DNA of 44,062 nucleotides from Armatimonadota bacterium (GTDB lineage Bacteria > Armatimonadota > UBA5829 > DTJY01): contig JAGONM010000032.1 of the NCBI GenBank assembly GCA_017993055.1, positions 1-44,062 of the forward strand, given 5' to 3'. The translations under genes were made by a program, and so were the position numbers. A model generated the notes under the pieces. That model was not told the DNA's origin and did not search any database. It saw nothing but the letters and a program-made list of their open reading frames with translations. Each line of letters opens with the position of its first letter. Position 1 is the stretch's first letter. Positions 26,857 to 30,638 of the stretch are shown here, piece by piece.

Positions 26857-28092
26857 TTAGCGTTCGACTGTGAGCAACCGGACGTCCTTGATATGTGACA
26901 CGCGGATGAGCGGGTAGTATCCCGAGGTCGTTGAGAAGAGCGAGGCGGAGCCGCTGATTTTCACGTACTCACCGACTCTCCTCTCTCCGATCGCGCCGAC
27001 CACCCGGACCCCGTACGACCCCATTCCGCTGTCTCGACGGGCGCCGTCGTCAACCGTCATCCAGGAGAGGTCATGGGCCACCTCCGTGACCAGTCCCGAA
27101 ATGCTCACGTCGAGGCCGATGTTGTTCGGGCCGCTGCTCCCAACGCATCCGATCTGCTGTCCGCTCGGCGCCCCTCCTCCCACGGCGAGTGTCGTCATCC
27201 CAAGGGGCCGCAGGCCGGTGGAAGCCGTCTGGCTGATGATCTGCGTCAGGTTGATGACTCGCTCGTGGTCGGGGCTGGTTACGCCGATGGTGCCCAGAAG
27301 GCTCACGTCTCTGTTCCGGAGCGCGCCCGTCCCCAATACCGCGATACCCGACGACCGGTCGGCCCTCTCGATGTTGAAGCGGTCCGAGTGTACGCGCGTC
27401 ACGATCAGATCCGAGATAAGGATCTCGGTTCCGGTGGGCAGGGACTTCGCGCCCGCGAGGTCTGCTTTGTACGCGTTCATACACCAGATGGCATTGTCAA
27501 CGTTGAAGCTGAACACCGCAGCCGGATCGTTGTCGGAGCACAACTCGACCTGCGTAAAGGGATCTCCGCTAATCATGCCGAGGAAATACACGTCGTTACC
27601 GTGATCGAGCGAACTGATCGGCTCCGTGTCGCTGAGCACCTCGGCCCCCAGGTCGTTGCGCATCCGCCAGAACGGTATCGGCGGGTCCCCGGTTGGACTC
27701 GGATTGCCTACCAGATAAAGGCCGAATGCGTACACAGGACGGGCGAAGGTAAAGGTTATCTTGTCGCTGTTGCCCGCGAGGAACTGGTTGTCCGCCGCCG
27801 CGCCGAGTGCGTTTGGAGCGCTGTATGGAGTGAAGACATTCGCGGCGATTGGTTGGAGGTGTTGAGAGCCTGCTCCGTCTGACGCAAGGCCTTCAGCGTT
27901 GATCATCGTGATCCCGCGCTCTGTGGCGTCCGCCCCTGCCGTCAGGTCGTCGAAGCTGATCGTGTACCGGACGTTGAACTCACCGGTGTCGTGCTGGAAC
28001 GCGGTGGGGTCCGTGTATCCCGCCCCTCCGTGCGCGATGCCGAGCAGGCAAGTGAGCATCATCAAGGATAGTATCGCTGTTCTGCGTTCCAT
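26857..28092 (-). CDS. Secreted protein with PEP-CTERM-like beta domain and C-terminal OB-like module
   Basis: This 411-residue exported protein has a signal peptide of about 22 residues. Residues about 35-205 (FNVRYTISFDDLTAG, KITFTFARPVYAFGLYLVG, FLGMISGDPFTQVELCSDN, FSFNVDNAIW) match the beta-sandwich often seen in PEP-CTERM-associated secreted proteins, although no PEP-CTERM tail is present. Residues about 210-411 repeat the module at the end of the beta-helix protein (LPTGTEILISDLIVTRVHSD, ADRSSGIAV, GERVINLTQ-like segment, PLGM, SGLVTEVAHDLSWMTVDDG, VGEYVKISGS). It is the last gene of the minus-strand set of four secreted proteins (16-base gap). GAGGAGG precedes the ATG by 6 bases. Confidence 0.75.
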   Translation of the reverse strand: MERRTAILSLMMLTCLLGIAHGGAGYTDPTAFQHDTGEFNVRYTISFDDLTAGADATERGITMINAEGLASDGAGSQHLQPIAANVFTPYSAPNALGAAADNQFLAGNSDKITFTFARPVYAFGLYLVGNPSPTGDPPIPFWRMRNDLGAEVLSDTEPISSLDHGNDVYFLGMISGDPFTQVELCSDNDPAAVFSFNVDNAIWCMNAYKADLAGAKSLPTGTEILISDLIVTRVHSDRFNIERADRSSGIAVLGTGALRNRDVSLLGTIGVTSPDHERVINLTQIISQTASTGLRPLGMTTLAVGGGAPSGQQIGCVGSSGPNNIGLDVSISGLVTEVAHDLSWMTVDDGARRDSGMGSYGVRVVGAIGERRVGEYVKISGSASLFSTTSGYYPLIRVSHIKDVRLLTVER

Positions 28093-28108: not shown

Positions 28109-28921
28109 TCAGTTCACCAGGTACACGTAGCTGTGGCTCAGGATGTTGATGCTGAAGCCGAGATTGTTCCCGACCATTACCTGGCAGGTGTCACCGTAGA
28201 CTTCGCACATGAATGCGTTGATCGTACCGCCAGGCCAAGGTACGACCTTGACAGACACGAAGTTACCGGTTGGAGTTCGGAACGAAACATAGGCCGTGAG
28301 GCCTGCTCCTGAGCCGCTCGGCCACAGCACGACTCTCATCTCTCTGTAGCCGGCTGTGCTGAACGACGGCGCGGCCACAGAGGAGTTGTTCGGCACGGGC
28401 GTATCGGTCGCCCAGAGCTGAATGGTGTTGTGCTTCGTCGGAGTATCCACCGCGTTCGTCGTCGCATCTATCTTAACTGTTGGCGAGTTCGACACGCTGA
28501 CGCTCGGAGCGTTGGCGATGTTCACGCTCGGGGTGTTCGAGACGCTCACGCTGGGCGTCCCGGTGATACCGACGTTCCACGCGCCACTTTGAGCGACGGA
28601 GGGCGTACCGGTCAGTCCGACGCTCCACGTCCCACTCTGCGCCGCCTTGACGGTATTGGTGGTCGAGTCTATCTTGACGGTGTTGGTCGTGCCGTCGATC
28701 TTGACGGTCGGGCTGTTGGCGACGTTGAAGTTCGGCGTGCCGAGGATGTTCATGTACCAGGGGTCCAACTGGACTGCCTGAACGACGTTGTTGCCGGTCT
28801 CGATGCCCACCAGCGGCTTGTTGGTGACCTCGACCGGCGTCGTTCGGGACACCGCCCATACCGGCAGGCATGCCACAATCAGGCAAGCTGTGATCAGTAG
28901 AGTATATGCTAGTCTTTGCAT
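28109..28921 (-). CDS. Secreted short-repeat protein, tandem paralogue 3
   Basis: This protein is about 270 residues. A signal peptide ends near PVWA; SRTTPVEVTNKPLVGIETGN is shared with the neighbours. Then come short beta-strand repeats of about 8-12 residues such as VKIDGTTNTV, SGTWSVGLTGTPSVAQ and VSVSNTPSVNIANAP, up to about residue 160. The last 105 residues are a non-repeat beta domain ending SYVYLVN. The repeats suggest an extended beta-solenoid or stalk; similar V/N/G-rich repeats occur in phage-tail-like and surface proteins. The start at 28921 is used because AAGGAG is 6 bases upstream; an ATG two codons earlier abuts that site. Function is unknown. Confidence 0.75.
   Translation of the reverse strand: MQRLAYTLLITACLIVACLPVWAVSRTTPVEVTNKPLVGIETGNNVVQAVQLDPWYMNILGTPNFNVANSPTVKIDGTTNTVKIDSTTNTVKAAQSGTWSVGLTGTPSVAQSGAWNVGITGTPSVSVSNTPSVNIANAPSVSVSNSPTVKIDATTNAVDTPTKHNTIQLWATDTPVPNNSSVAAPSFSTAGYREMRVVLWPSGSGAGLTAYVSFRTPTGNFVSVKVVPWPGGTINAFMCEVYGDTCQVMVGNNLGFSINILSHSYVYLVN
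28443..28581. repeat. 139-base block identical to 29299-29437
   Basis: This stretch inside paralogue 3 is base-for-base identical to one inside paralogue 2, by direct comparison, while the flanking coding sequence differs at many positions. It marks recent duplication or gene conversion. Confidence 0.85.
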
Positions 28922-28967
28922 TTCCATCTCCTTCTGCAGAAAGTCCGAGGCGTCCCTGTCACACAGG

Positions 28968-29789
28968 TCAGTTCACCATGTAGACGCAGCTCTGATAGTA
29001 GATCACGACGCTCGATCCGGTACTGTTGTAGATATCAATCTTGCAGGTATCGCCGTAGACCGGGCACGTAATCGGCACGACGAGGGGCGACCAAGCGACC
29101 TGTTTCACTGTCAGGAATGTGCCCGACGGTGTGCTGAACATGATGTACGCCGTGAGATTCACTGAACTGGTGTTCGCATACAACATGAATCTCAACTCGT
29201 CGTAGCCGGCGCAGTTGATCGCTGGTGACACTATGTTGGAACTGGTCGGAACCGTCTGATTCGTGGCCCATATCTGAACCGAGTTGTGCTTCGTGGGGGT
29301 ATCCACCGCGTTCGTCGTCGCATCTATCTTAACTGTTGGCGAGTTCGACACGCTGACGCTCGGAGCGTTGGCGATGTTCACGCTCGGGGTGTTCGAGACG
29401 CTCACGCTGGGCGTCCCGGTGATACCGACGTTCCACGTCCCACTCTGGGCCACCGATGGCGTGCCAGTTAGGCCGACGCTCCACGTGCCGCTCTGCGCCG
29501 CCTTGACTGTATTTGTGGTGCCGTCGATTCTCACCGTGTTGGTCGTGCCGTCGATCTTCACGGTCGGGCTGTTGGCGACGTTGAAGTTCGGCGTGCCGAG
29601 GATGTTCATGTACCAGGGGTCCAACTGGACTGCCTGAACGACGTTGTTGCCGGACTCAATGCCCACCAACGGCTTGTTGGTGACCTCGACCGGCGTCGTC
29701 CGGGACACTGCCCACAGCGGTGTTGCCCCGATCGCCGATAGAACAACAAGGCAACCGATAAGATACATATGAGGTTTGATGTTACGCAT
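28968..29789 (-). CDS. Secreted short-repeat protein, tandem paralogue 2
   Basis: This 273-residue protein has a signal peptide ending near PLWA. It shares the N-terminal SRTTPVEVTNKPLVGIESGN and the repeat region (residues about 55-165) with paralogue 3 almost residue for residue. The C-terminal 105 residues diverge strongly but keep landmarks: a WAT near their start, a central GYDELRFMLY strand, CPVYGDTCKI, and the ending SCVYMVN. The pattern is a conserved stalk with a diversifying tip. GGAG precedes the ATG. The gaps to its neighbours are 46 and 36 bases, consistent with one operon. Confidence 0.75.
   Translation of the reverse strand: MRNIKPHMYLIGCLVVLSAIGATPLWAVSRTTPVEVTNKPLVGIESGNNVVQAVQLDPWYMNILGTPNFNVANSPTVKIDGTTNTVRIDGTTNTVKAAQSGTWSVGLTGTPSVAQSGTWNVGITGTPSVSVSNTPSVNIANAPSVSVSNSPTVKIDATTNAVDTPTKHNSVQIWATNQTVPTSSNIVSPAINCAGYDELRFMLYANTSSVNLTAYIMFSTPSGTFLTVKQVAWSPLVVPITCPVYGDTCKIDIYNSTGSSVVIYYQSCVYMVN
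29299..29437. repeat. 139-base block identical to 28443-28581
   Basis: This is the partner of the identical block in paralogue 3. Both encode the same short beta-strand repeats in the same frame. Confidence 0.85.
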
Positions 29790-29825
29790 GTTTGTCTCCT
29801 GTCGTGTGACGCATCCTCCGTGGCA

Positions 29826-30638
29826 TCAGTCGGTTAGATACACATAGCTGGTACCGTAGATTGTGGCTGTCAGGGTGCTGCCGTTCCGGATGCGTATCTG
29901 ATACAGATCTGAAATCACGTCGCATGAAAAGCTGAGGACGTGCGCTTCCATGGCAAAGCTTCCGCCCTGCGCAAAACCCGACGCCGCGGAAAGCCATCTG
30001 GCCTTGCCTATCTCCGCAACAACTCCATCTCCCATTCTGGCGAGAAGTGAAGCGGTGATCTGGTCGCTGGCGGGAGTGCATACCATGATGAAATGCGCTC
30101 GGCGGAATCCGCTGGTATAGATCAGCGGAGAGCTTAGCATGGCTCCCGGGGCAACGTCTGTGCCGTTTGTCCAGAGCTGAATCACCTGAGCTACGGCGGG
30201 TACCTTGACGGTGTTGGCGGCGTTCGATATACCCACATTCCACGTGCCGCTCTGGGCCACGGATGGAGTGCCGGTCAACCCGACGTTCCACGTGCCGGAC
30301 TGGCTCACGGCGTGCGTGTTGACGTTCACGGTTGGCATGCTCGAGACTCCGACGTTCCAGGTCCCGCTCTGGGCCGCCTTGACCGTGTTGGTCGTGCCGT
30401 CGATCTTCACGGTCGGGCTGTTGGCGATGTTGAAGTTGGGAGTGCCGAGGATGTTCATGTACCACGGCTCTACCTGGACCGCCTTGACCGTGCTGTTGTT
30501 GGGGTCAATGCCCACCATCGGCGTGTTAACGACCTCGACCGGCGTCGTTCGGCCCACGGCGAGGAGCGGCCGGGCGGAGATGATGAGCAGGACTGCGGCC
30601 ACGGTGATGGCAGACACAAGGCGTATTGTCTTCAGCAT
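29826..30638 (-). CDS. Secreted short-repeat protein, tandem paralogue 1 (most divergent)
   Basis: This 270-residue protein has a signal peptide ending PLLA. It shares GRTTPVEVVNTPMVGID and WYMNILGTPNFNIANSPTVK with the other two paralogues. Its repeat region is shorter and reordered (WNVGVSSMPTVNVNTHAV, SGTWNVGLTGTPSVAQ, then a second SGTWNVG unit), and its C-terminal domain differs (GFRRAHFIMVCTPASDQITA and an ending SYVYLTD). It is the first gene of the minus-strand set and has GGGAG 6 bases before the ATG. No convincing promoter was found in the 191 bases upstream, which separate it from the divergent ceramidase-like gene. Confidence 0.75.
   Translation of the reverse strand: MLKTIRLVSAITVAAVLLIISARPLLAVGRTTPVEVVNTPMVGIDPNNSTVKAVQVEPWYMNILGTPNFNIANSPTVKIDGTTNTVKAAQSGTWNVGVSSMPTVNVNTHAVSQSGTWNVGLTGTPSVAQSGTWNVGISNAANTVKVPAVAQVIQLWTNGTDVAPGAMLSSPLIYTSGFRRAHFIMVCTPASDQITASLLARMGDGVVAEIGKARWLSAASGFAQGGSFAMEAHVLSFSCDVISDLYQIRIRNGSTLTATIYGTSYVYLTD

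Follow-up and report, generated by a model that had tools for sequence, protein, structure and literature searches.

Bdellovibrio bacteriovorus displays mosaic adhesive trimer (MAT) fibres on its surface; these combine a conserved N-terminal part and a β-rich shaft with C-terminal tips, among them β-sandwiches, that have been exchanged in the course of evolution (PMC10769870). A second relevant structure is the triple-stranded β-helix of phage T4 gp5, which is built from octapeptide repeats with a recurring valine (PMC3004832). In a 44,062-nucleotide stretch of Armatimonadota DNA (contig JAGONM010000032.1, hereafter the window) we examined three tandem genes whose products resemble MAT fibres in this overall plan. 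Our preferred reading, to which we assign a probability of about 0.55, is that these genes belong to an operon for adhesive fibres that are secreted, probably trimeric and tipped with a jelly-roll domain, the stalks evolving in concert while the tips drift. The literature searched contained no paper found on tandem-repeat adhesins in Armatimonadota.

The three paralogues (g1, g2 and g3) and the gene that follows them, p411, form a single minus-strand operon (Table 1) with intergenic gaps of 36 nt (g1–g2), 40 nt (g2–g3) and 16 nt (g3–p411). Scanning the operon for promoters and terminators gave signals no more frequent than chance, and an Rfam search of it returned nothing. An earlier note on this DNA had described three tandem paralogues of secreted type with a signal peptide, an RTTPVEV segment and V/N/G-rich repeats, and the open reading frames and their coordinates confirm this description. 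Each N-terminus carries a hydrophobic, signal-peptide-like stretch, followed by RTTPVEV, the repeat stalk and a C-terminal domain. The diverging C-terminal domain is likewise present, at 110–125 residues and not the approximately 105 first given, and the proposed common end motif YVYLxx holds in the more general form (Y/C)VY(L/M), as g2 ends in CVYMVN.

Table 1. Positions in the window of the operon genes, their domains and the shared block.
Feature	Position	Strand	Description
Paralogue 1 (g1)	29826..30638	minus	270 aa; first operon gene; signal peptide, stalk and tip
Paralogue 2 (g2)	28968..29789	minus	273 aa
Paralogue 3 (g3)	28109..28927	minus	272 aa
p411	26857..28092	minus	conserved partner gene downstream; has signal peptide, CBM-like domain at N-terminus (lead), tandem OB-fold C-terminal module
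g1 repeat stalk	30204..30551	minus	116 aa; about 13 units of 8–10 residues
g2 repeat stalk	29301..29702	minus	134 aa; about 15 units
g3 repeat stalk	28445..28846	minus	134 aa; 97% identical to g2 stalk
g1 tip domain	29829..30203	minus	125 aa
g2 tip domain	28971..29300	minus	110 aa; predicted jelly-roll β-sandwich
g3 tip domain	28112..28444	minus	111 aa
139-bp block in g2	29299..29437	minus	matches g3 at every base; gene-conversion tract that ends at stalk/tip junction
139-bp block in g3	28443..28581	minus	identical to g2

The earlier note did not recognise the family, and database searches agree: none of the three proteins exceeded a curated cut-off in Pfam or NCBIfam, and PHROGs gave a short repeat match only (phrog_19806, 58 aa, function unassigned, E 5e-5, to a short part of the stalk). 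A PDB sequence search found no match for the whole protein or for a tip profile. Judged from sequence comparison, the three proteins represent a real, unnamed family. Profile searches located it in 10 of the 28 genomes of the class and gave one marginal match in 263 further genomes of the phylum, and named records also place most members in Armatimonadota. The distribution is patchy, as no member gene was found in the four other genomes of the bacterial family to which the window belongs. Tandem sets outside the window comprise three copies (L052/L020) and two copies (L051); the remaining loci carry one copy each, with two separate loci in one genome (G019). Most relatives have a single copy. 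No match to the three proteins was found in phage records by tblastn, and a search of viral contigs with the family alignment yielded no relative of the whole protein and no RTTPVEV segment. The two-copy locus L051 (contig JAFGNP010000088.1, 1–4998) comes from a metagenome-assembled genome labelled Coriobacteriia; its gene order matches that of the window and its ceramidase-like protein is 87.5% identical to the window's, which suggest a misbinned Armatimonadota contig.

The stalks consist of units of mostly 8–10 residues with the form x-V-x-V-x-N/G-x-P, and RTTPVEV is the first unit, which is nearly invariant. Relative to shuffled stalks, the autocorrelation of V/I reaches z = 11 at lag 8 and z = 5.5 at lag 2. 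This octad periodicity, the alternating valines and the very low dN of the stalk (see below) show selection on its protein sequence. Relatives have about 3 to 17 units and stalks of 23 to 149 residues; the 23-residue stalk of L025 could hardly be called a fibre. AlphaFold models of 12 sequences as single chains gave the stalk a pLDDT of mostly 42–55 and no strands, a low confidence that fits disorder equally with a trimer modelled alone. The β-solenoid anticipated by the earlier note was not predicted in these models, and units of 8–10 residues are short for such a fold. Because octapeptide valine repeats build the T4 gp5 β-helix (PMC3004832), we consider a trimeric rod the most likely stalk structure.

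For the tip, the expectation of a separately folded globular domain fared better. AlphaFold predicts residues about 137–244 of the mature protein to form a jelly-roll β-sandwich with confidence (pLDDT 78–95, means over blocks of ten). The structural matches of the model are jelly-rolls (VIA Z 9–12), and XepA (Z 11.8) and YomS (10.9) are among the closest solved folds, together with GOLD, PPC and CBM domains. The fibre head of F-BclA (9h38) aligns with Z 9.6 and an rmsd of 2.7 over 101 residues, and Bacillus endospore appendage subunits are also found (7a02, Z 9.4; 9i0y by Foldseek). The predicted jelly-roll is a common fold and indicates no ligand. The 16 tips compared have GYxExR, PVxxD, an Asn and a terminal YVYLVN as a common framework, with no fully invariant column, so that the alignment presents the tip as a conserved family domain rather than a set of unrelated domains.

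In eight other loci (L051, L020, L021, L023, L024, L025, L028 and L029) the partner gene p411 follows immediately; the gene after the L022 member matches it in the C-terminal half only. Full-length p411 is confined to genomes with a stalk gene. Its model (mean pLDDT 77) contains an N-terminal domain and then OB folds, the best structural match of the former being a putative Aeromonas salmonicida carbohydrate-binding module (9q5u; Z 11.8, rmsd 3.6, 151 residues). As Foldseek alone found nothing for p411 under E 0.001, we treat a CBM-like N-terminal domain as a lead. The OB-fold C-terminal module (window 26857–27480, residues ~205–411) is matched dozens of times per genome across the class, 43 times in its own genome and up to 58 times elsewhere, and in seven of eight own-genome examples it lies 24 residues or fewer from the C-terminus of a large open reading frame. 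The module may serve the class for sorting or anchoring proteins.

Evidence for exchange of sequence between genes is clearest in the stalks of g2 and g3. The identical block reported in the earlier note is exactly 139 nt, the longest that the two genes share, and further identical tracts of 94 nt (upstream of this block) and 30 nt are present. Tip identity between the two genes is 45.5%; dS and dN are 0.28 and 0.017 in the stalk, and 1.15 and 0.495 in the tip. Stalk codons 118–156 contain no silent change, and at codons 105–117 10 of 12 synonymous sites differ while dN is 0; the diverged flanks that had been described exist upstream at silent sites, whereas the encoded amino acids there stay the same, with one change in 13. 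When silent codons were shuffled within the stalk, the run of identical codons had P = 5e-5. By AU tests, g2 falls with L051 gene a and g3 with L051 gene b in the signal-peptide region (alternatives P 0.0035 and 0.014), whereas in the stalk each gene is joined to its neighbour in the same genome, g2 to g3 and a to b (alternatives P < 1e-4); the ungapped first 49 stalk codons give the same within-genome grouping (alternatives P ≤ 1.1e-4). Between the window and the syntenic contig L051, the nearby ceramidase-like gene has a dS of 0.52; the stalk dS of 0.28 is lower, so the stalks were homogenised after these two loci split. Homogenisation of the g2/g3 stalk by gene conversion is well supported, and the proposal that conversion keeps the stalk uniform holds within a genome (dS, codon shuffle and AU tests) but not between species.

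The tips have a different history. Among g1, g2, g3 and L051 a and b, identity is 24–66% in the tip and 72–97% in the stalk. For four tip pairs dN/dS is 0.40–0.42, pairwise averages that may mask single selected sites; p411 (0.27) and the ceramidase-like gene (0.14) have lower values. The tips are under relaxed purifying selection, with no measurable positive selection. The idea that they diversify under selection is not borne out, given dN/dS of about 0.4, a framework common to relatives and a single copy in most of these. L051 gene b has a signal peptide of the g3 type and a tip closest to that of g2, and since the dS between these two tips (0.51) resembles that of the ceramidase-like gene, they look orthologous. 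A tree of 12 tip sequences joins g2 with L051 b at 98%, but an AU test on five tip proteins retains the tree of position-wise orthology (P 0.17); tip exchange between genes is for this reason suggested by the sequences, and tip swapping as a proven event was rejected. It is an unlikely, speculative extension that the near-identical stalks are recombination platforms for swapping or renewing tips, the array being a tip-exchange system of a new short trimeric-fibre family in Armatimonadota.

We infer export, trimerisation, surface display and adhesion for the gene products in the following way. The signal peptide would export each of the three proteins. The N-terminal half would be a rod of 8–10-residue V-x-V-x-x-N/G-x-P β units, and three chains would wind this stalk into a trimeric β-helix or β-prism. 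The C-terminal jelly-roll tip would bind an extracellular surface or polymer, with p411, by way of its CBM-like domain, perhaps acting together with the fibre protein. Recombination between near-identical stalks would keep them alike within a genome and change the number of repeats, while the tips would be older paralogues diverging under relaxed purifying selection.

This fibre reading is weakened by the unstructured single-chain stalk, the generic tip fold, the short stalk of L025, the lack of a MAT N-domain in the window's own genome and the lack of a recognised anchoring feature on g1, g2 and g3. The low stalk pLDDT, the existence of a stalk as short as 23 residues and the single copy in most loci would all suit an account in which the repeats are a disordered, low-complexity secreted linker, the functional unit is a soluble and mostly single-copy jelly-roll binding protein, and the tandem genes are ordinary duplicates. 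We regard this account as rather unlikely: the octad periodicity and alternating valines, the nearly invariant first unit, and a stalk dN that is very low even where silent sites are saturated would be unusual for a mere linker.

Still less probable is a polymerising assembly outside the cell, a curli- or Ena-like filament or matrix in which these proteins would be subunits or caps and p411 a partner, in place of free-standing adhesive spikes. The tip does match the endospore appendage subunits, although unrelated jelly-rolls score equal to or above that match, and Q-S-G-T-W-N-V repeats weakly resemble curlin repeats, although PF07012 matched g1 only and far under its cut-off (E 0.4, 11.1 bits against 20.7). 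With regard to the stalk identity of g2 and g3, one recent partial tandem duplication in place of gene conversion could appeal to the frequency of unequal crossing-over in repeats and to the unequal copy numbers of the window (3) and L051 (2). We hold such an event to be very improbable, because a single duplication would not yield the mosaic of identical tracts split by a stretch of saturated silent change, nor signal peptides that retain an older orthology.

The fibre reading places the locus among systems that are ordinary in kind, as a probably trimeric secreted fibre family that is as yet unnamed. With its RTTPVEV stalk and YVYLVN tip the family is compact; with a partner gene conserved in the operon and clearly concerted evolution, it offers a small testable case of a bacterial fibre with a constant shaft and diverging tips.

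The stalk repeat also connects phage virion genes with cellular secreted proteins. A stalk-only query of viral contigs found five repeat-bearing proteins (IMG/VR L080–L084) whose QSGTWNVGITGTP-type repeats are 52–72% identical to the stalk repeats over the matched segments, although they have no RTTPVEV segment; the gene for the L082 protein lies between those for the major head protein and the head-tail adaptor. Profile comparison of the tip with two phage domains gave probabilities of 6% and 0.2%. In one viral protein (L081, 5629–6633), whose layout is like that of the window proteins, the N-terminus resembles a signal peptide and QSGTWNVGITGTP-type repeats are combined with a C-terminal domain of another kind.

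Like the window proteins as predicted, the BclA and F-BclA fibres of Bacillus have a stalk and a C-terminal jelly-roll head, but the window stalks contain no G-x-y run of the collagen type found in BclA, and no sequence similarity was detected. T4 gp5C has an 8-residue repeat with regularly placed Val and Gly/Asn (PMC3004832), and the window stalk shows the same octapeptide periodicity. Set against the gp5C pattern G(a) N/D(b) V(g), the stalk has recurring V and N/G positions, but its units vary from 8 to 10 residues and often include proline. They belong to proteins with a signal peptide for export rather than to a tail spike; no sequence match between gp5C and the stalk was found.

The window proteins lack the MAT N-domain (~130 aa), RTTPVEV following directly after the signal peptide, and NF053851, which represents this domain, has no match in the window's own genome; we therefore leave them outside the MAT group. 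They are about 270 aa long, compared with more than 900 aa for solved MAT examples, have no S74 domain and are encoded in a small operon with p411. However, in L022 (8518–9609) the family stalk and tip stand behind an N-terminus that matches NF053851 (E 1.9e-9, 37.5 bits, cut-off 60), and a similar N-terminus, also below the curated cut-off, occurs in a truncated locus (L027/L066 of G011). Within the class, 12 of the 28 genomes have sub-threshold matches to the MAT N-domain, and larger fibres of the MAT type may thus be common in it. The window proteins share with MAT fibres the variable C-terminal tip on a common shaft, as the stalk and tip identities given above indicate, and they plausibly work like MAT fibres.
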